From: Pycnococcus provasolii
Taxonomy: Eukaryota; Chlorophyta; Pseudoscourfieldiophyceae; Pseudoscourfieldiales; Pycnococcaceae
NCBI GenBank assembly: GCA_938743325.2
Contig: OW568889.1
Location: 496,001 to 560,000, forward strand
Length of the DNA: 64,000 nucleotides
Reading direction: 5' to 3'
A program made the position numbers and the translations under genes. Numbering within the stretch: the first letter of the stretch is position 1; each line of letters opens with the position of its first letter. The notes below the pieces were generated by a model. The model did no database searches. It had not been told where the DNA came from and was given only the letters and a program-made list of their open reading frames with translations. Shown one piece after another: positions 307-20,470 of the stretch.

Positions 307-1462
307 CTGCAAGGAGGAAGGAGACGTCTCGTCCTCGAAAAGGGCAAGAGCACGCTGACACAAAGAGAGCGAACACGACACGCTTGACGAGCTTGAGGAG
401 GCACCCCCATGGCGTGGGTTCCCGGGAGCCCACAAGAGGCTGGCCATGTTTGTGACAAATGCGGCAAATGGCGGCGGCGCCGGAACGTCACCCCTGGGGC
501 CGAGGACTCAGAAAACCCCGAGGGGCGAGGAACGCTTTTTTTAATTAGGGGTTGGGGAACAACTCCACCCCTAATTTTCTTCGACCTATTCCCACTCCAC
601 CCGCGGGGCCCCAACCGCCTCACCCCAAGGTCCCTTTATACCACCTCCCCCGCCCGCCTCACCTCAAGGCTCAAGGTCCCTTTATACCACCTCCCCCGCC
701 CGCCTCACCTCAAGGCTCAAGGTCCCTTTATACCACCTCCCCCTCCTCCCCCTTGGAGGGACGGGACCCCCTCTTCCTTCCTCCCTTTTTTTCTTTTTCT
801 GTAGTTTCCTCACCCTACCGGGTACCCTCTGGCAGTCTGGCTGCCTGCCTGCCTGGGCATGAAAAACGACTTGTCGACTGGTCAGGTAAATTTTTTAAAC
901 TTATGGTTAGGTGTCTTTCATAATGAAGGCTGGCATACGTAGTCTATGTATACCCGGCCGGGACCCGGGTACTGTATAGTAAGTTACTTTTATGTAGTAC
1001 TACTTCAAAATCAGAAAGCCTTGTGCTTGGATGGTCCTTCACTCAGACAGACTCACGGGTAAGACGCGTAAGTTCATCTATCTTAATTTATTATGTGGTA
1101 CCGTAGGGCCTAGGGGAATCAAAAGTGGGTGTTGCCATACATGTACTGTATGTATTCCAAGACAAGATCTTGATTCGTGTGACCGTTTACAGCTTTATAA
1201 ATATGAAAAATACGACAATTAATAACCTGCGAATCCATGAAATGTATCGCACGAAACTCATTAGACTATGTAAGGTACAAACATAGTAGATGTAACGTGC
1301 GAGAATGGAGTCTTGACATGACATAAACACAAAAACGATCTGCGAAGTGGAGGAGCGCAGGGACTTTTCAAAATCCTCTTCATGCTGCTTCCTCCGCGCA
1401 TATGCATTTCATGTGCGTGTCACGCATATCTCCGCGGATTGCGCGCTGTTCAGATCTTTGCT
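307..1462. other. Intergenic or intronic, no gene recognised
   Basis: No reading frame here looks coding. The left half is GC-rich and holds a 46-bp tandem repeat; it may contain the missing upstream part of the minus-strand gene at 1-306. The right half (about 880-1400) is AT-rich with scattered TATGTA and TACATAC motifs and is the 3' flank of the giant repeat gene. Confidence 0.5.
617..750. repeat. 46-bp tandem repeat, about 2.7 copies, with a TTTATA core
   Basis: AAGGTCCCTTTATACCACC begins at 627, 673 and 719, an exact 46-bp period. The first copy has a slightly different left flank and the third breaks up into a CT-rich run. Each copy carries a TTTATA box and, on the minus strand, a GGTGAGG stretch resembling a splice donor. 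Function unknown. Confidence 0.8.
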
Positions 1463-4400
1463 CTAGGAACTTGGAGAGATGGCCGACTTGTCATTAGCCA
1501 TTTTGGGGCTCAAAAGAGCCGCGCGGCGGAATGTCCCCTCGACCGTCGTCACGATGGACGACAGCGCGGACTCATCGAGAGCATCGCCGCCTCGTAGACG
1601 CACGGTGAACACCCAATCGCCGCCATTCGACGCTCCCCTGTCGACTCGGCTCAAAATCTCAATCGACGATGAGGATGTGTCAGTAGTGCCATCGGTTGAT
1701 TCTAGCGCCGATCGAGGCGACGACAATGACCGGCTTTTGCCTAATGCTGCAATATCATCCTCAACCATTGGATTTGATAGACGTAGCTCACCAACGTCAA
1801 CAAATGGAACGACTGTCGATCCCACCTTGCGACGCGAAACAACAGTAATTCGGACATAAGCGGCACCCATGTGTGGCACGGATATTGTCATAATGTCATC
1901 AAAGGACAAGGCGTGAAGTTGAGCATTTCCAGATGTCACCATCTGATGAGGAATCAACGAATAATCCAAATCGGCCTCTGACCCATCATCGGTCATCAAT
2001 TCATGGAGGCCGCTGCCAATATCCAAAGATGCGCCGACATGAAGGTATGGCACAACATAGGGCTGGTTTTCTCGGCGTGTTAAATCATACTCACCCACGG
2101 GGTACGAAATGTCCGAAAATTTGTCTTTTTTCTCATCGACAAAAGAATCCGAAAATTCTGAGGAGAATAAATCTTGAAGACGTCGCGACCTTCTTCTTCC
2201 AGAACCACTTGATGTCACAGTTCCAGTGACAACAACATTTCCACCAACATACAAGTTCTCATTGATGCCGACACCGCCATTCGACACGATCAATGCTCCC
2301 GAAGATGTGGACGTAGATGACGCTGCAGACGATACACTGACGGCTGCGTCCATCGTGACCGTGTCACTAGCAGCATTGTCGCCGAGCACGGTGTTGCCAG
2401 CGACGGCGGCGGCGCCAGTGACGGCGAGGTTGCCACCCATGTTGAGATTCTCCGCAATGCCGACGCCGCCCATGACAACCACCGCACCGGCGTTATAGGC
2501 GCCTGATGTCGTCGTCGCTGCAAAATGGGAGTTACCGTTAACGCCAATGCCTCCAGCGACCTGTACCGCGCCCGTCGTTGCCGAACTCGACGCCGTGGTA
2601 TCGGATACCGTGACGACACCAGAGGATACCGTGACGGCACCACCGAAGTTGGATGCAGCACTCGTGCCCACGCCGCCTGTCACGACGAGCGCGGCGGTCG
2701 TTGGATTAGCCGCCGCCGTGCTGTCGGATATCGTGACGACACCACCGAAGTGGGATGCAAGATCCACGCCCACGCCGCCTCCGACGATGAGCGCGCCCGT
2801 CGTTGCCGAACTCGACGCCGTGGTATCGGATATCGTGACGACACCAGAGGATACCGTGACGGCACCACCGAAGTTGGATGCAGCACTCGTGCCCACGCCG
2901 CCTGTCACGACGAGCGCGGCGGTCGTTGGATTAGCCGCCGCCGTGCTGTCGGATATCGTGACGACACCACCGAAGTGGGATGCAAGATCCACGCCCACGC
3001 CGCCTCCGACGATGAGCGCGCCCGTCGTTGCCGAACTCGACGCCGTGGTATCGGATATCGTGACGACACCAGAGGATACCGTGACGGCACCACCGAAGTT
3101 GGATGCAGCACTCGTGCCCACGCCGCCTGTCACGACGAGCGCGGCGGTCGTTGGATTAGCCGCCGCCGTGCTGTCGGATATCGTGACGACACCACCGAAG
3201 TGGGATGCAAGATCCACGCCCACGCCGCCTCCGACGATGAGCGCGCCCGTCGTTGCCGAACTCGACGCCGTGGTATCGGATACCGTGACGACACCAGAGG
3301 ATACCGTGACGGCACCACCGAAGTTGGATGCAGCACTCGTGCCCACGCCGCCTGTCACGACGAGCGCGGCGGTCGTTGGATTAGCCGCCGCCGTGCTGTC
3401 GGATATCGTGACGACACCACCGAAGTGGGATGCAAGATCCACGCCCACGCCGCCTCCGACGATGAGCGCGCCCGTCGTTGCCGAACTCGACGCCGTGGTA
3501 TCGGATACCGTGACGACACCAGAGGATACCGTGACGGCACCACCGAAGTTGGATGCAGCACTCGTGCCCACGCCGCCTGTCACGACGAGCGCGGCGGTCG
3601 TTGGATTAGCCGCCGCCGTGCTGTCGGATATCGTGACGACACCACCGAAGTGGGATGCAAGATCCACGCCCACGCCGCCTCCGACGATGAGCGCGCCCGT
3701 CGTTGCCGAACTCGACGCCGTGGTATCGGATATCGTGACGACACCAGAGGATACCGTGACGGCACCACCGAAGTTGGATGCAGCACTCGTGCCCACGCCG
3801 CCTGTCACGACGAGCGCGGCGGTCGTTGGATTAGCCGCCGCCGTGCTGTCGGATATCGTGACGACACCACCGAAGTGGGATGCAAGATCCACGCCCACGC
3901 CGCCTCCGACGATGAGCGCGCCCGTCGTTGCCGAACTCGACGCCGTGGTATCGGATACCGTGACGACACCAGAGGATACCGTGACGGCACCACCGAAGTT
4001 GGATGCAGCACTCGTGCCCACGCCGCCTGTCACGACGAGCGCGGCGGTCGTTGGATTAGCCGCCGCCGTGCTGTCGGATATCGTGACGACACCAGAGGAT
4101 ACCGTGACGGCACCACCGAAGTTGGATGCAGCACTCGTGCCCACGCCGCCTGTCACGACGAGCGCGGCGGTCGTTGGATTAGCCGCCGCCGTGCTGTCGG
4201 ATATCGTGACGACACCACCGAAGTGGGATGCAAGATCCACGCCCACGCCGCCTCCGACGATGAGCGCGCCCGTCGTTGCCGAACTCGACGCCGTGGTATC
4301 GGATATCGTGACGACACCAGAGGATACCGTGACGGCACCACCGAAGTTGGATGCAGCACTCGTGCCCACGCCGCCTGTCACGACGAGCGCGGCGGTCGTT

Positions 4401-7400
4401 GGATTAGCCGCCGCCGTGCTGTCGGATATCGTGACGACACCACCGAAGTGGGATGCAAGATCCACGCCCACGCCGCCTCCGACGATGAGCGCGCCCGTCG
4501 TTGCCGAACTCGACGCCGTGGTATCGGATATCGTGACGACACCAGAGGATACCGTGACGGCACCACCGAAGTTGGATGCAGCACTCGTGCCCACGCCGCC
4601 TGTCACGACGAGCGCGGCGGTCGTTGGATTAGCCGCCGCCGTGCTGTCGGATATCGTGACGACACCACCGAAGTGGGATGCAAGATCCACGCCCACGCCG
4701 CCTCCGACGATGAGCGCGCCCGTCGTTGCCGAACTCGACGCCGTGGTATCGGATACCGTGACGACACCAGAGGATACCGTGACGGCACCACCGAAGTTGG
4801 ATGCAGCACTCGTGCCCACGCCGCCTGTCACGACGAGCGCGGCGGTCGTTGGATTAGCCGCCGCCGTGCTGTCGGATATCGTGACGACACCACCGAAGTG
4901 GGATGCAAGATCCACGCCCACGCCGCCTCCGACGATGAGCGCGCCCGTCGTTGCCGAACTCGACGCCGTGGTATCGGATATCGTGACGACACCAGAGGAT
5001 ACCGTGACGGCACCACCGAAGTTGGATGCAGCACTCGTGCCCACGCCGCCTGTCACGACGAGCGCGGCGGTCGTTGGATTAGCCGCCGCCGTGCTGTCGG
5101 ATATCGTGACGACACCACCGAAGTGGGATGCAAGATCCACGCCCACGCCGCCTCCGACGATGAGCGCGCCCGTCGTTGCCGAACTCGACGCCGTGGTATC
5201 GGATATCGTGACGACACCAGAGGATACCGTGACGGCACCACCGAAGTTGGATGCAGCACTCGTGCCCACGCCGCCTGTCACGACGAGCGCGGCGGTCGTT
5301 GGATTAGCCGCCGCCGTGCTGTCGGATATCGTGACGACACCACCGAAGTGGGATGCAAGATCCACGCCCACGCCGCCTCCGACGATGAGCGCGCCCGTCG
5401 TTGCCGAACTCGACGCCGTGGTATCGGATACCGTGACGACACCAGAGGATACCGTGACGGCACCACCGAAGTTGGATGCAGCACTCGTGCCCACGCCGCC
5501 TGTCACGACGAGCGCGGCGGTCGTTGGATTAGCCGCCGCCGTGCTGTCGGATATCGTGACGACACCAGAGGATACCGTGACGGCACCACCGAAGTTGGAT
5601 GCAGCACTCGTGCCCACGCCGCCTGTCACGACGAGCGCGGCGGTCGTTGGATTAGCCGCCGCCGTGCTGTCGGATATCGTGACGACACCACCGAAGTGGG
5701 ATGCAAGATCCACGCCCACGCCGCCTCCGACGATGAGCGCGCCCGTCGTTGCCGAACTCGACGCCGTGGTATCGGATATCGTGACGACACCAGAGGATAC
5801 CGTGACGGCACCACCGAAGTTGGATGCAGCACTCGTGCCCACGCCGCCTGTCACGACGAGCGCGGCGGTCGTTGGATTAGCCGCCGCCGTGCTGTCGGAT
5901 ATCGTGACGACACCACCGAAGTGGGATGCAAGATCCACGCCCACGCCGCCTCCGACGATGAGCGCGCCCGTCGTTGCCGAACTCGACGCCGTGGTATCGG
6001 ATATCGTGACGACACCAGAGGATACCGTGACGGCACCACCGAAGTTGGATGCAGCACTCGTGCCCACGCCGCCTGTCACGACGAGCGCGGCGGTCGTTGG
6101 ATTAGCCGCCGCCGTGCTGTCGGATATCGTGACGACACCACCGAAGTGGGATGCAAGATCCACGCCCACGCCGCCTCCGACGATGAGCGCGCCCGTCGTT
6201 GCCGAACTCGACGCCGTGGTATCGGATACCGTGACGACACCAGAGGATACCGTGACGGCACCACCGAAGTTGGATGCAGCACTCGTGCCCACGCCGCCTG
6301 TCACGACGAGCGCGGCGGTCGTTGGATTAGCCGCCGCCGTGCTGTCGGATATCGTGACGACACCACCGAAGTGGGATGCAAGATCCACGCCCACGCCGCC
6401 TCCGACGATGAGCGCGCCCGTCGTTGCCGAACTCGACGCCGTGGTATCGGATACCGTGACGACACCAGAGGATACCGTGACGGCACCACCGAAGTTGGAT
6501 GCAGCACTCGTGCCCACGCCGCCTGTCACGACGAGCGCGGCGGTCGTTGGATTAGCCGCCGCCGTGCTGTCGGATATCGTGACGACACCAGAGGATACCG
6601 TGACGGCACCACCGAAGTTGGATGCAGCACTCGTGCCCACGCCGCCTGTCACGACGAGCGCGGCGGTCGTTGGATTAGCCGCCGCCGTGCTGTCGGATAT
6701 CGTGACGACACCACCGAAGTGGGATGCAAGATCCACGCCCACGCCGCCTCCGACGATGAGCGCGCCCGTCGTTGCCGAACTCGACGCCGTGGTATCGGAT
6801 ATCGTGACGACACCAGAGGATACCGTGACGGCACCACCGAAGTTGGATGCAGCACTCGTGCCCACGCCGCCTGTCACGACGAGCGCGGCGGTCGTTGGAT
6901 TAGCCGCCGCCGTGCTGTCGGATATCGTGACGACACCACCGAAGTGGGATGCAAGATCCACGCCCACGCCGCCTCCGACGATGAGCGCGCCCGTCGTTGC
7001 CGAACTCGACGCCGTGGTATCGGATACCGTGACGACACCAGAGGATACCGTGACGGCACCACCGAAGTTGGATGCAGCACTCGTGCCCACGCCGCCTGTC
7101 ACGACGAGCGCGGCGGTCGTTGGATTAGCCGCCGCCGTGCTGTCGGATATCGTGACGACACCACCGAAGTGGGATGCAAGATCCACGCCCACGCCGCCTC
7201 CGACGATGAGCGCGCCCGTCGTTGCCGAACTCGACGCCGTGGTATCGGATATCGTGACGACACCAGAGGATACCGTGACGGCACCACCGAAGTTGGATGC
7301 AGCACTCGTGCCCACGCCGCCTGTCACGACGAGCGCGGCGGTCGTTGGATTAGCCGCCGCCGTGCTGTCGGATATCGTGACGACACCAGAGGATACCGTG

Positions 7401-14982: not shown

Positions 14983-15915
14983 TTACGCTCTCCTCCTTCT
15001 CCTCTCCTCCTGCGACGCGCCACCTCCATTCTCGTCGATCGCCTGCGCCTCGAGTTCGACGTCACTTGACGGCTCAGGTTCGCTCGCCGCGCTAGGCCTT
15101 GCGGCGTTGTTCTTTGATGCACGCTGTCGTCTATTCGCCTGTCCAGAAAGCTGGCTCGACGGGTTGTGCCACTCGACTCTCTGCGAGTGTTTGAGGATCG
15201 AGCCAGGTTCCTCCATCATGCGCGCACTCCCTCGCGTCACGTCTCCGGCGCGTCGCACAGCCTCCTCGCGTGAAGCGCCAGCCATGAGACTCTGCGCCTT
15301 GGAGTACGCGGACTTGCAGCATAGCGCGAGAGGTTGTATTCGGTCGCTGAGCTCGTTTCGTTCTTTGACGATGCGTGCGAGTTCGTCCTTAACATCTCTC
15401 AGGTGCTTTTGAGCCGAGAGGCGAAATTCCGCGAGTGCATTCTCGTTGAGTTTCTTGCACCAGTCCTTTTGTCTGCTGTGGTCGCCTTCTCTGTAGTAGT
15501 TGAGCAGTGCTTCCGTCTTTTCCTCCGCGGACTGGTACCTTTTCAGTTGCACGTTGCACTGCTGCCTGCTTATTTTGAGCGCCTCTTTGTGTGCCTGTAG
15601 GTCCGCGAGCGCGTTGTCAAGTTCGCCAACGAGTCTCGTTCGATCGCTCTGTATGCGCGCGACGAAGACGTGTCCAAGTCCGAGCACGACGATGGTTAAG
15701 ACAATCAGTGAGCGCCGGACTGTGCTTTGGTTCAGTGGGCCTCCTCCACCATATGGCACGGTGGCGAGTGAAGAGGCCATATGCGCACTTCTCCTCCCGA
15801 ACGTGCTCAAGCTACCCCCTGGAGTGGCTACCGGGTGGCCCTTGAGCCCTTCTTCAAACGACACATTAGCATTAGCGGAGGACGACATCGGCAAGGGAGC
15901 ACTGTTCGCGGGCAT
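14983..15915 (-). CDS. Single-pass membrane coiled-coil protein, unknown function
   Basis: 310 aa, ATG at 15915-15913. A Ser/Gly-rich N-terminal tail of about 65 residues precedes one transmembrane helix (residues about 67-87), followed by a long charged helical region likely to form a coiled coil (about 88-205) and a disordered, basic C-terminus. Without a signal peptide this is the layout of a type II membrane protein, as in many Golgi or endomembrane tethers. I do not recognise a family. It converges on the TMCO4-like gene with 90 bp between stops, and its start lies 60 bp from the left end of the recombinase element, which therefore occupies its promoter side. Confidence 0.65.
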   Translation of the reverse strand: MPANSAPLPMSSSANANVSFEEGLKGHPVATPGGSLSTFGRRSAHMASSLATVPYGGGGPLNQSTVRRSLIVLTIVVLGLGHVFVARIQSDRTRLVGELDNALADLQAHKEALKISRQQCNVQLKRYQSAEEKTEALLNYYREGDHSRQKDWCKKLNENALAEFRLSAQKHLRDVKDELARIVKERNELSDRIQPLALCCKSAYSKAQSLMAGASREEAVRRAGDVTRGSARMMEEPGSILKHSQRVEWHNPSSQLSGQANRRQRASKNNAARPSAASEPEPSSDVELEAQAIDENGGGASQEERRRRRA

Positions 15916-15975: not shown

Positions 15976-16130
15976 TTTATGTACGATTCTACCGAAAGGT
16001 TTAGTCGGGGTAAACGGTAGAGGACCCCCTCTGAGGTGCCGAGCCGCGGGGTGGCTCGGCTGCTAGGGTTTAAGGTGGTCTCCCTCGGACCACCATTCCT
16101 GCTGCTGGTTGCGCTGTTCGCGCAACCTTT
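15976..16130 (+). repeat. Split direct repeat A1 (155 bp), four hairpins
   Basis: Matches 17947-18101 base for base (offset 1971). It contains four consecutive perfect stem-loops: 15990-16019 (TACC/GGTA plus GTTTA/TAAAC), 16038-16060 (GCCGAGCC/GGCTCGGC), 16074-16094 (GGTGGTC/GACCACC) and 16107-16127 (GGTTGCGC/GCGCAACC). Confidence 0.92.
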
Positions 16131-16271
16131 GCAGCCACACGTGTCGAGACGCGTGGGATCACTGACGTGAGGAGTTCACAAGTGAACTACCTATCTTGTT
16201 ACTCCGAGGAGATTTCTGATTTAGTTACTACTCCGAGGAGATTTTGATTAAGTGCTTGAGGGCACTTGCAT

Positions 16272-16910
16272 ATGGCAGCTGTTGCACAAGAGCCACCTGA
16301 GATTGTGGCCTTGCGTTTGCAGTTGCAGATTGCGGAAGCTCAACGTGATCAAGCTGTGGCTGAGGCCCAAGGCAGAGCTGTTGCGCCTGTAGGACAACAG
16401 CCGGTGCAGCTTAACTATTTGCTTCCGAGGGATTTCGAGGAGGTCGTCTCTGCTGATCTTTTCCCTCGCGACGGTGTTGGTCGTCAAGGTGCAGTCAACC
16501 CGCTTCGCCTTGATAACGATCTTGCCATAACCGAGTACTCTAGACGCAAGTCTAAGCACCAGGTGTGGACGTATCGGCGATCGCGTACAGCTGGTGCTTA
16601 CCTCGAGCTTGTTGTATCCGCTTTGGGAGACGTCATAGCTGACGGTCAAAACTTCGAGGACGGTCTAGCCCCTCTAGCTGGCGAGGACGCAGCTGCTTGG
16701 CGAAACAGAATTAGGCCGGTGCTTGCTCAACGCTCCGCGACTCTTGACCGGACGCTTAACACTGCCACTGGGATCCTTTCGAGGCTCAACGAACTCAACG
16801 ATTTCTTGTACGTGAAGGGTGCTCCTGACTACGCGATCGCGCCGGAAAAGCGTGCAGCGGTAGAAGACGTACCGCTCAGCGTTCAATCAGTTCAAGAAGT
16901 TCAGCGCTGA
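16272..16910 (+). CDS. Element ORF1, N-terminal part of the recombinase protein, frameshifted
   Basis: 212 aa from the ATG at 16272. A short coiled-coil segment (residues about 10-33, rich in Gln, Ala and Glu) is followed by a helical domain I do not recognise. Its last 16 or so residues look out of frame: in the +1 frame the same DNA, open from 16864, encodes the start of the recombinase core-binding domain (KTYRSAFNQFKKF). ORF1 and the recombinase were therefore probably one protein, split by a one-base insertion or two-base deletion near 16861. A programmed frameshift is possible but I see no convincing slippery site. Confidence 0.6.
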   Translation: MAAVAQEPPEIVALRLQLQIAEAQRDQAVAEAQGRAVAPVGQQPVQLNYLLPRDFEEVVSADLFPRDGVGRQGAVNPLRLDNDLAITEYSRRKSKHQVWTYRRSRTAGAYLELVVSALGDVIADGQNFEDGLAPLAGEDAAAWRNRIRPVLAQRSATLDRTLNTATGILSRLNELNDFLYVKGAPDYAIAPEKRAAVEDVPLSVQSVQEVQR

Positions 16911-17919
16911 GATTGGGATCAACCCCTACGCGGCAATTGAGGGTGACATCATCGACTACATCGCTTGGTTGGGGCGCAACGGTACGGTGTCTGCTCGCAG
17001 CTTGCAGCCCTATCTGACAGCAATTAACTGTGTCTATGAAGACACTGGTCTGGGCGACGGCCCAGCTAAAGGACCGACAGTCTCTGCCGTTCGTAATGGT
17101 CTTCGGGCCGCGCAACGCGAGACGATCAGTACTGCCCGGCGTGGCGCCCTTCCCGCCGCCAGTGCACTCCGGATTGCTGAATTCACGTTTGACCTGGCTG
17201 CCAACTGGGGCGTGTTGGCACTGGCCAAACCTCGGCTCGACGACAACGACCGCAAAACGTTGCGGACTCTGCGTAATGGGCTGGGAGTCACCTCAGGTTA
17301 CATGACCGGATCACGGCCTTCGTCGATTGTCTTCCTGGATCAGACTGTGGGTGTGTCAGCCTCCGACGGTCATGGAGTGGTCGTCAATCGGGACTTCGTC
17401 AAGGGCACTACGGACGAACCAGATGACGCCAGGGGCAAGATCTCGCTGACCTATCCGCTCACCGATTTCTACCGCCGATACCGCAGCGCCATGGCGACTT
17501 ACGTCGCCTTGTGGGAACGTTGTTTCGGTGGCGCCGCGGGATCTCGGCAACCGTACCTGTTCGAGCTGGACCCGGCTGACACGTCATCCTCCGCGATGAC
17601 CGCATGGCTGGACGACATGCTGAACGTCGTTGGCATCCTGCCGCCAGCTGGTGTTAAGTATTTGCCAGGCAGTCTACGCTCGGGCATGGCGTCAGCTTGC
17701 AATGCTCTCGGCGTTAACATGTCTCGCATCGAATACATTGGCGGATGGGCTCCCGGCTCCACCGCTCTCATACAGCACTACATCGACCCTACTGTTCAAG
17801 CCGATGCTGCTGCTGCTGTCTTCTTTGGACATCTTCTTCCTGCTCTGTCTCATCCCGCTGCGGCGGCTGGGCCAGCAGCGCCGCGCGGTGCGCCGCACGG
17901 TGCTGCAGGCGGAGTCTAA
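16864..17919 (+). CDS. Tyrosine recombinase (integrase) of the split-repeat element
   Basis: The frame is open from 16864 (351 codons); it probably continues ORF1 after a frameshift. The first 90 residues form a helical core-binding domain. The catalytic part shows the first arginine in a TGSRPS motif (codon at 17314), the second in SLRSG (17677), the tryptophan in GGW (about 17745) and the nucleophile tyrosine in QHYID (17779). The usual HxxR histidine is replaced: three residues before the second Arg is Gly. The protein would cut and rejoin DNA through a 3'-phosphotyrosine link. The sole enzyme seen in the element, it presumably integrates or circularises it. Whether the frameshifted copy is active is unknown. 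Confidence 0.75.
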   Translation, partial: KTYRSAFNQFKKFSAEIGINPYAAIEGDIIDYIAWLGRNGTVSARSLQPYLTAINCVYEDTGLGDGPAKGPTVSAVRNGLRAAQRETISTARRGALPAASALRIAEFTFDLAANWGVLALAKPRLDDNDRKTLRTLRNGLGVTSGYMTGSRPSSIVFLDQTVGVSASDGHGVVVNRDFVKGTTDEPDDARGKISLTYPLTDFYRRYRSAMATYVALWERCFGGAAGSRQPYLFELDPADTSSSAMTAWLDDMLNVVGILPPAGVKYLPGSLRSGMASACNALGVNMSRIEYIGGWAPGSTALIQHYIDPTVQADAAAAVFFGHLLPALSHPAAAAGPAAPRGAPHGAAGGV

Positions 17920-17921
17920 GA

Positions 17922-17950
17922 TGGCAGAATTGTTTGGGTCCTCGGGTTTA
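17922..17950 (+). repeat. Split direct repeat B1 (29 bp)
   Basis: Matches 18183-18211 exactly and overlaps the first 4 bases (TTTA) of A2, giving the fused B1-A2 junction expected of a circle-junction template in PAT/Ngaro-type elements. It follows the recombinase stop codon at once. Confidence 0.88.
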
Positions 17951-18101
17951 TGTACGATTCTACCGAAAGGTTTAGTCGGGGTAAACGGTAGAGGACCCCC
18001 TCTGAGGTGCCGAGCCGCGGGGTGGCTCGGCTGCTAGGGTTTAAGGTGGTCTCCCTCGGACCACCATTCCTGCTGCTGGTTGCGCTGTTCGCGCAACCTT
18101 T
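17947..18101 (+). repeat. Split direct repeat A2 (155 bp), four hairpins
   Basis: Second copy of the element's terminal repeat, identical to 15976-16130, carrying the same four stem-loops. Confidence 0.92.
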
Positions 18102-18182
18102 CCCACCCGCCCGCCCTGACTATGGGTTGCTGGGGGCCATTCAGGATTTAATTTTGGGTTGTAACCACGTCATTTGACCTTT

Positions 18183-18211
18183 TGGCAGAATTGTTTGGGT
18201 CCTCGGGTTTA
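18183..18211 (+). repeat. Split direct repeat B2 (29 bp), right end of element
   Basis: Copy of B1 at offset 261. The 81 bp between A2 and B2 (18102-18182) have no counterpart elsewhere in the element. Confidence 0.85.
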
Positions 18212-19213
18212 GCATACATACACGAGTTTAGTCTATGGAGAACTGCTCAGCTCAGCTCACCTGGGGAGGCCTAACCCTAACCCTAACTCCTACCACTCTC
18301 TGTAGCCTGTAGGTTGGCTCAAGAATGTTGGATCTTGTCCTTCTCACCCAACACCTTTAAACCACGACATACTCAACTACTCATCGTCGCCGTCGTTGTC
18401 CTGCGTCATCATCATTACCGCGCCGTCGACGACGACAACCTCCACCTCCGTCGCAGCTGTTTGAGCGTGTACGACTGTCCTTGTCATCGGCTCATCGCCT
18501 TGCGGTAACGCGTCAGCCAGCTAGCTGATGGTGTTCGCGATGCTCACTGTCGAGCACATGTGCCGCTCGCTCGATGTCTTCGACGGCTGTTGTGATGACT
18601 CGCATCGTGCAAGCATCGAACAACCTGTTGAACCCCCTTGCCAGTGGGATCGTAATGACCTAATGGGTGGGTGACCCTTCCTCACGTCAATACTTGGTAA
18701 AGTGTTACACTGTGTTACAATGTTAACTTCAAGTTCAGTGGGAGGTCCCGTCCACATGCGAAGACTGCATTCTGCATATGTATTCAGAACTAAGACCAAG
18801 ACCATGAATGCACCTAGGTCTTCCAAGAACCTTGTCAGCCTCTTCATCCATCCAACCATCTGCAGTGCATTGACTGGCCGACTTGGGTAGTTGTTGGCCG
18901 TTGGGGGCCGGGCTTGGGGCGCGGAAACTTGAACCAAAAGGCGTGTAGTCAATCCACTCAATCGCGGCTGTTGAGGTGGAGGCGGCGGCGGCGGCTGACG
19001 TGGAGGGAGCGCCGGAGCGGCGGCGGCGGCGCCGGCCAATCGGCCATTGCTTTCGTTCCTCCTCAAACCGTCCATTCGCTATGAATGCCCCACTCAAATC
19101 TTCTCTGGACAAGGTTTTGGTCGGGATCCCCCCCTATGTGCCCGACCGGGATCCCGGGGGGGAAAAAGGGCTCCGAAAGAACCTTTGCCCATTATAGATA
19201 AATAGTCCTTGAC
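18212..19213. other. Intergenic, no gene recognised
   Basis: About 1 kb between the mobile element and the oxygenase gene. It contains a short telomere-like run (18271-18290), a GGCGGC-rich stretch (about 18976-19035) and a GGGATCC-centred imperfect inverted repeat at about 19120-19165. An A/T stretch at 19190-19205 (TTATAGATAAATA) could be a TATA-like element for the gene at 19214. Confidence 0.45.
18271..18290. repeat. Short telomere-like run (CCTAACCCTAACCCTAACT)
   Basis: Two and a half units of TTAGGG (on the complement) lying 60 bp outside the right end of the recombinase element. Confidence 0.7.
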
Positions 19214-20470
19214 ATGCCCGCCGATGCCGATGCCGATGCCGATGCAGATGTCAGCGCCCTCTCTCGGTCTCTTTATTTTGTCTTAAGAAGTCCCCCGTGC
19301 GCCTCTGCTCTCTATAGTCATGGATACTATGTCGGTTCCTTGCTTGAACCTTCCACCTCAGAAGAAGCTTGTGCTTCAGCTTGTGCTTCAGCAGCTTGTG
19401 CTTCCGCTTCTTTGTCTCCAGAGATGATGGGATCGGATAAGCTTGATTCAAAGTTTGGTTCGGAGGAGGAGTCGGAAATTTCTGCTCCGTCAACTTCTGC
19501 TTCTTTGTTGCGTTGTTCCTTACAATCTCTCCATGCGGAAATTCTTCATCTGCACGCTCTTCAGTTGATGTCGCCGAATGCGATTTCGTTCAAGACGAGC
19601 CAGGCATCAACTCCGCACATTTTAATTAAACCGCACATCTTTGAGGCGGACATGCACCTTGAAAAGACGCAAACGCACGCGCCTGTGGCGTGCGCACTGT
19701 GGAAGTCAAACCAAGTCGTCGACGCATTCCAACAAAACGAACAACACGCGTACCTGAACATCGCGTCGCACGCAAACGAAGATAGACCCGCATTCAAACT
19801 GCAACTCAACGAAGGGAACGGCGCGTGCTTTCCGTGGCACCACGACAACGCGGGAGGAGGAACGACCGCGAGAGACCGAGGGAGCAGACGCAAAATTACC
19901 GTCATCGTCTATCTCTCCGAACCACCCACGCAAGGAGGAGAGCTCGTGCTTATGCCATTCTGCAAGCCGGAACTCGAACGACGCGTCACGCCCGTCGTTG
20001 GGACCGTCGTCGCATTCAGGTCGGAGTGCGTGCTCCATCGAACGCTGCCCTCGTTCTGCGACAAAGCGCACAACCAAAGAACGTGCTTCACCATATGGCT
20101 CGAAAGCGACGACGCGGCCAACGCGCCGCTGTCTTGCGCACTGCCGCCGGAGCTGCTGACGAACCTGCGCGAAAGGCGCGGTGATGATGCTGGTGCCGTG
20201 CCGTACAGTCCGATGTGGCGTGAGTTTGCCGACAAGCTGAGCACGTCGCCTGCCAATCGCATCTTCGCGCGTCTCGTCTACCGGGAAATGTTCGAAGCGA
20301 GCCTGAGAGAGTGCTTCTCGGTAGGTGGGGGAGAAACGGCGGAGAAGAGAACGCGCGTTGCACTGGCGATGCATGAAGCGCACATGCGCTCGGCATCAGA
20401 TGCCCTTCGCGAGGTGGCAGATGCGCTCACGTGGGTTCTTCGGCAACGCATCGAGGAAAACAAAGAGTAA
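19214..20470 (+). CDS. 2-oxoglutarate/Fe(II)-dependent dioxygenase, prolyl-4-hydroxylase-like
   Basis: 418 aa, ATG at 19214. The first 90 residues are low complexity (Ala-Asp and Ala/Ser/Cys runs encoded by GATGCC and GCTTGTGCTTCA microsatellites), so the true start might be a later Met. The catalytic double-stranded beta-helix is clear: the metal triad is His209-x-Asp211 (WHHDN) and His275 (LHRT), and Arg289 (QRTCF) is placed to bind the 2-oxoglutarate carboxylate. The GGELVLMP and VGTVVAFRS stretches fit the family. The enzyme would hydroxylate a protein or small-molecule substrate that cannot be read from sequence. A TGTAA poly(A)-like signal lies 10 bases after the stop. It converges on the mannosyltransferase gene with a 44-bp gap. 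Confidence 0.8.
   Translation: MPADADADADADVSALSRSLYFVLRSPPCASALYSHGYYVGSLLEPSTSEEACASACASAACASASLSPEMMGSDKLDSKFGSEEESEISAPSTSASLLRCSLQSLHAEILHLHALQLMSPNAISFKTSQASTPHILIKPHIFEADMHLEKTQTHAPVACALWKSNQVVDAFQQNEQHAYLNIASHANEDRPAFKLQLNEGNGACFPWHHDNAGGGTTARDRGSRRKITVIVYLSEPPTQGGELVLMPFCKPELERRVTPVVGTVVAFRSECVLHRTLPSFCDKAHNQRTCFTIWLESDDAANAPLSCALPPELLTNLRERRGDDAGAVPYSPMWREFADKLSTSPANRIFARLVYREMFEASLRECFSVGGGETAEKRTRVALAMHEAHMRSASDALREVADALTWVLRQRIEENKE

Follow-up and report, generated by a model that had tools for sequence, protein, structure and literature searches.

Internally deleted, probably PAT-type retrotransposon copy in Pycnococcus provasolii and its differently deleted relatives

The 64,000-nt stretch of the Pycnococcus provasolii genome analysed here (the window) carries at 15976–18211 a short mobile element, which we identify with high confidence (probability about 0.94) as a PAT-type copy (order DIRS, tyrosine-recombinase retrotransposons) that is young, internally deleted and non-autonomous. 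It belongs to a known retrotransposon kind, not to a new class of mobile element. In this copy and its relatives we observed the split-repeat geometry, a missing middle, sister copies bearing either reverse transcriptase (RT) or RNase H/methyltransferase-like pieces, a full-length cousin, T-rich target sequence on the left, and one base that only the A repeats of the window copy have.

Sequence comparison within the window showed that the left split direct repeat A1 (15976–16130) is identical to A2 (17947–18101) over 155 of 155 bases, and that B1 (17922–17950) agrees with B2 (18183–18211), with which the element ends on its right side, in all 29 bases. The parts follow each other on the forward strand in the order A1-ORFs-B1-A2-B2. 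B1 and A2 overlap by the 4 bp TTTA (17947–17950), which we read, after descriptions of DIRS1, as a putative circular junction, i.e. crossover site; the first four bases of A1, likewise TTTA, may represent host target. Repeat identity by chance is excluded, and the initial annotation, made from the letters alone, had both repeat pairs, their order and the 4-bp overlap exactly right. Between A1 and B1, a gag-like ORF1 (16272–16910, first ATG at 16272) is severed by the deletion at 16864 and terminates out of frame, and a 5'-truncated tyrosine recombinase frame (16867–17919, 350 aa open) follows on the same strand. At the internal deletion junction (16864..16865), RT, RNase H and a methyltransferase-like region are absent, and all terminal sequences (A1, B1, A2 and B2) are retained. 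A 310-aa reverse-strand ORF that has no Pfam hit (14983–15915) starts about 60 bp from the insertion, which is upstream of its ATG and may affect its promoter. Also near the element is a forward-strand ORF with a 2OG-Fe(II) oxygenase domain (19214–20470; PF13640, E 1.7e-12). A short interstitial telomere-like sequence, CCTAACCCTAACCCTAAC, stands at 18270–18287, immediately past the right end, and stretches resembling it were seen by eye near two other places of the family (L014 and L019).

The recombinase frame is open from 16864 to its stop codon at 17917–17919, and no ATG occurs in it before 17302, which indicates a gene truncated at its 5' end. Its identity as a tyrosine recombinase is supported, but weakly by sequence. 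In Pfam, the window protein gave SAM-like core-binding matches alone (E 0.029 and 0.093, both below the cut-off), and no catalytic domain was matched in any of 11 aligned relatives. An AlphaFold model made from 11 sequences, of low confidence (mean pLDDT 55), has Cre as its best Foldseek match (E 5.7e-05, TM about 0.45), and the 50 Foldseek matches listed are named recombinases or integrases, suggesting a Cre-like fold. At the position of the HxxR motif where His is presumably expected, the window protein has Gly and the cousins have Lys. The PDB sequence search returned no match, PADLOC found nothing, and a scan of viral contigs gave one 17-residue match, which was disregarded. The initial annotation had described the coding content as a recombinase alone; the recombinase stands on the evidence above, but the element is not recombinase-only, as the gag-like ORF is also present. 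The label gag-like derives from the position of ORF1 and from short tblastx matches of five sister copies (L009, L010, L012, L014 and L017) to ORF1 of the full-length cousin described below, with the window copy itself not among the matches listed. In Pfam, ORF1 of the window copy had no hit, and neither it nor ORF1 of this cousin matched a zinc finger; Toc3-like PAT elements have a Gag that lacks one.

Pieces of the missing middle were found in sister copies. A 3177-bp copy at C2:710383–713559 is 98.9% identical to the window element in the shared parts, on both sides. Past its position 889 it continues via ORF1 into an open RT frame (RVT_1, E 4.1e-20) that the window lacks, and the window match resumes at its position 1954. 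What separates these two matches in the window is a 123-base part of the recombinase core-binding domain, absent from the C2 copy; at 16864 the window passes from the gag side, which matches the C2 copy, into this domain. Another copy, on C16, has retained two adjoining pieces between its junctions, as judged by alignment to the full-length cousin: the last part of RNase H and the first part of the methyltransferase-like region. It also has about 50 bp of a foreign repeat at its junction. In this foreign repeat (L011, C16 around 701355–701408; L075–L078) the 5' part, 150 bp or more, is constant and stops close to an ATG (ATGCGCCACGAC), after which three different 3' sequences occur among the four copies read; its last ~50 bp have 25 matches outside C16. 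No full-length copy of the window's own family was found in the assembly, and the RT, RNase H and methyltransferase-like pieces never occur all in one of its 12 places; the ~4.7-kb form is therefore pieced together from these fragments and the cousin.

The full-length cousin (C4:115324–120100, L035/L064, 4777 bp) has the geometry of the window element, with a 169-bp A1, a 24-bp B1 overlapping A2 by 2 bp, A2 and B2, and both repeat pairs 100% identical. It encodes an ORF1 of 273 aa, an ORF2 of 675 aa and an overlapping recombinase frame. In Pfam, ORF2 matches RVT_1 (E 1.7e-16) and RT_RNaseH (E 4.2e-4, bits below the cut-off), and also Dam with E 0.04 for the whole protein and 0.006 for its C-terminal part alone, both below the cut-off; a search for Dam in a more distant element at C2:111767 gave no hit. 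Identity between the C4 cousin and the window family is 54% in RT and 36% in the recombinase. On the cousin map, the window deletion covers very roughly positions 950–3420 (~2.5 kb), and this map and the C2 comparison together suggest a window-family progenitor near 4.7 kb. Likewise of PAT type, the cousin family (C4:115324–120100 and L036–L073) is more abundant than that of the window: a stretch of 72 bases in gag has at least 34 matches outside the L010 copy (40 of 44 candidates scored), two of them in one inverted place.

Across the 32.3-Mb genome (46 contigs), the window family occupies 12 places. The A repeat matches at 18 positions in these 12 places (18 of 18 candidates scored) and the B repeat at 14 positions, 13 of them exact and one with 3 mismatches, with none for a reversed-pattern control. 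Every A and B match sits in copies of the same element, except a lone 59-bp A fragment at C10:797761. Both outer ends are kept in 6 of the 12 places (the window, L009, L010, L011, L012 and L017), and five of these six have the complete A1-B1-A2-B2 set, L017 having lost roughly half of A2 and the whole of B1. Truncation or rearrangement marks the remaining six: L013, L014, L018 and L019 retain the 5' side only, L015 the 3' side only, and L016 is inverted. The five full A1-A2 spacings (1971, 1493, 1247, 1525 and 2912) are all unequal, which makes the 2.2-kb form a single copy. A1 and A2 of the window copy have in common one base that none of the other 15 A sequences in the comparison (17 in all) shows; such sharing is expected if one template gave both repeats. 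Some places show further arrangements. In L016 (C4:799k), the left part of the element stands inverted and meets the B2 end at an internal TTTA, which looks like a recombinase-made self-insertion or a rearrangement. In L014 (C10:672750), a 5' fragment of the element apparently has, by eye, one host flank on both sides in inverted orientation (a foldback). The L010 copy (C23:164.1–164.7 kb) directly adjoins a truncated cousin copy (cousin positions 1–610).

In the available part of PMC4157794, PAT elements are defined by split direct repeats, RT, RNase H, a methyltransferase (MT) and a recombinase, and Ngaro elements as being without the MT domain. The split direct repeats A1-B1-A2-B2 are present in both the window and the C4 cousin. 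RT and RNase H occur in the family but not in the window copy, with RNase H recognized in the C16 copy by similarity to the cousin, and the recombinase enters through the Cre-like fold of the low-confidence model. The family shares with PAT the RT, RNase H and recombinase and perhaps, as an MT-like region, the MT; the window copy lacks RT, RNase H and MT, and the MT identity of its relatives is weak by Pfam. It also resembles PAT, possibly its Toc3-like members, in having A1-B1-A2-B2 split repeats with internal repeats downstream of the recombinase, as described in the same part of that source (PMC4157794). Ngaro of Cafeteria burkhardae, in the portion of its description consulted, has the same A1-[ORFs]-B1A2B2 geometry, three ORFs and a tyrosine recombinase (PMC8547959); whereas Ngaro is without an MT domain, the start of an MT-like region is seen in the C16 copy of the window family, and an MT-like region in the C4 cousin. 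Membership of the family in PAT rather than Ngaro hinges on this weak region and is likely. SIRE, the truncated non-autonomous form of VIPER, is likewise a shortened derivative of a split-repeat recombinase retrotransposon, but it is described, in the part of PMC6681497 available, as one defined form, whereas the copies examined here are each deleted differently.

As it stands, the window copy has a recombinase without RT, as Cryptons do. To our knowledge, Cryptons have no split direct repeats of this sort; the window copy has them, and it has RT-bearing sister copies. The initial annotation had left the choice between a recombinase-only derivative of a DIRS element, moved in trans by a full one, and a new, self-mobile compact class combining Crypton-like coding content with DIRS-type ends. 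What speaks for the latter is that a gag-like ORF and a recombinase alone stand between intact split repeats. However, RT and RNase H/MT-like pieces occupy the deletion site in sister copies, the window junction recurs in no second copy, the spacings all differ, and the recombinase frame lacks an early ATG, so we consider such a class extremely improbable. A search for longer relatives with RT and RNase H, suggested at the outset, succeeded (RT in the C2 copy, the RNase H end in the C16 copy and the full-length C4 cousin), and the several copies of one 2.2-kb form that would have favoured a compact class were not found among the five spacings. The window copy derives by internal deletion from an RT-bearing element of the DIRS order, the very finding named in advance as fatal to the new class. 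That proposal falls, and the derivative reading, in which movement in trans is putative, is right in kind but not as recombinase-only, given the gag-like ORF. A Crypton/DIRS hybrid class is ruled out by the RT-bearing sister copies and the lack of same-junction copies. A single shared nonautonomous master is unsupported, the junctions being unique to each copy examined.

The ends of the copies bear on how such elements insert. In all 10 unrearranged left ends, TT stands at −4 and −3 before TGTACG, with −2 and −1 variable (the rearranged L016 left end, which does not fit, was excluded), and all 8 right ends read GGG-TTTA; the frequency of TT in the window is 0.049. These flanks fit recombination of a circular TTTA junction with a T-rich target without duplication. 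Recombination at a 3-bp circular junction has been described for DIRS1-like elements (PMC3266345, part of the text). When the joined flanks of three of the six two-ended copies were queried for an empty site, only their own halves and cousin repeats matched; the left flank of the L010 copy is a cousin fragment repeated across the genome. Taken with the layout of the element, a possible life cycle would begin with a progenitor of ~4.7 kb, probably having a gag-like ORF1, an RT-RNase H-methyltransferase-like ORF2 and a recombinase ORF3. RNA would be made from A1, with RT and recombinase supplied in trans by fuller copies, and B1-A2 would bridge both ends to give a circle. The recombinase would then join the TTTA junction of the circle to a T-rich host site, with no target duplication.

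The deletions differ from copy to copy. In C2-copy coordinates, the own-family junctions are 889/recombinase (window), 1040/2458, 1020/2684, RT/recombinase (C2), 413/filler/RNase H/2117 (C16) and 665/2989 (C6), i.e. different in all six two-ended copies. Mapped cousin copies are also internal deletions, each different, C4 excepted. Among 17 counted cousin copies, every one has different breakpoints (left 409–2233, right 2261–4478) and reaches the B2 end, and A1 was seen in 16 (not in the part of L053 examined). Each deletion is at least 1586 bp, which has P 1.6e-7 under the simple null of uniformly random internal breakpoints. The 17 were drawn from the recombinase and RT matches listed, so that the total may be larger (at least 17); L048 and L069 are the same copy and were counted once, as were L051 and L067. 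Excluded were L045/L071 (two deletions), L050 (inverted), L039 and L047 (partial), L058 (a fragment beside L010), L034, L041 and L055 (own family or distant) and L035/L064 (full length). A copy with a small deletion would have retained the probed part of RT or recombinase, and the absence of such copies would thus not be due to the probes alone. L046 has lost 8 bp of B1, and L053 has ~250 bp of extra sequence. Pairing A1 with A2 gave a related count: 28 of 40 full-size matches form 14 pairs and 12 are unpaired (40 of 100 candidates scored), and 13 of the 14 pairs are shortened, with all 14 spacings different and only C4 full length among the pairs scored. Since ten of these 13 belong to the 17 as well, neither count is independent of the other. 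Identity to the full-length copy is at least 97.8% in 10 of the 17 and only 89–97% in the other seven, indicating that not all are young. The stretch 2234–2260 is common to all 17 deletions, which is not unusual given their lengths (0.53). Microhomology averages 1.14 bp at 14 junctions versus 0.72 bp by chance (p 0.08), and exact junctions share 0–3 bases. Left out of this mean were L061, L062 and L073 (exact-match values −20, −17 and −11), whose alignments have no filler, merely mismatches near the junction; for L036 and L037, overlaps are 4 and 5 by alignment versus 1 by exact match.

Two accounts of these deletions were weighed. If the middle is lost during retrotransposition, through cDNA template jumps or in the circle, every insertion would be born with its own deletion, and we hold this tentatively, at slightly less than even odds. 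The different junctions of all two-ended own-family copies and of all counted cousin copies, the latter running to B2 with A1 almost always seen, point to such an origin, as do the shortened and unequal A1-A2 pairs (largely the same copies), the uniformly large size of the deletions and the foreign repeat at the C16 junction. However, microhomology is not clearly over chance, 6 of the 12 own-family places show truncation or rearrangement resembling ordinary post-insertion decay, and the 17 come from the matches listed and include the seven more diverged copies. It is also possible, and to us not quite an even bet, that the deletions arose after insertion by host end-joining repair, with selection or chance removing long elements. 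The truncations into flanks in L013, L014, L015, L018 and L019 (a type of event that the set of 17 was not chosen to catch) and the 0–3 shared junction bases are consistent with repair, but the 17 cousin deletions are confined to the element and all large, 10 of them in copies nearly identical to the full-length one. That PAT-type retrotransposition is deletion-coupled in this host, nearly every insertion being born with its own large deletion and intact ends, is the boldest form of the first account, and we think it unlikely. Defective-interfering genomes and internally deleted P and Ds elements are comparisons for deletion-coupled insertion. In the available parts of PMC4157794, PMC8547959, PMC12477816, PMC6681497, PMC3266345 and PMC9210276, we found no DIRS-order element described as carrying a different, unique deletion in every copy, which does not prove that print holds no such description; in Saccoglossus, multiple large deletions were suggested to underlie variable domain lengths (PMC3266345, in part).

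These results show the claim of a new transposon class to be false and add a full-length cousin of PAT type. More notable than the window copy itself are the large internal deletions, unique from copy to copy: one different large deletion per copy could show how such retrotransposons lose autonomy, and the pattern could show whether deletions arise in their poorly understood circular replication. If the deletion-coupled reading were true, the genome would fill with RT-less derivatives, each of them unique, of a very small number of full-length elements.
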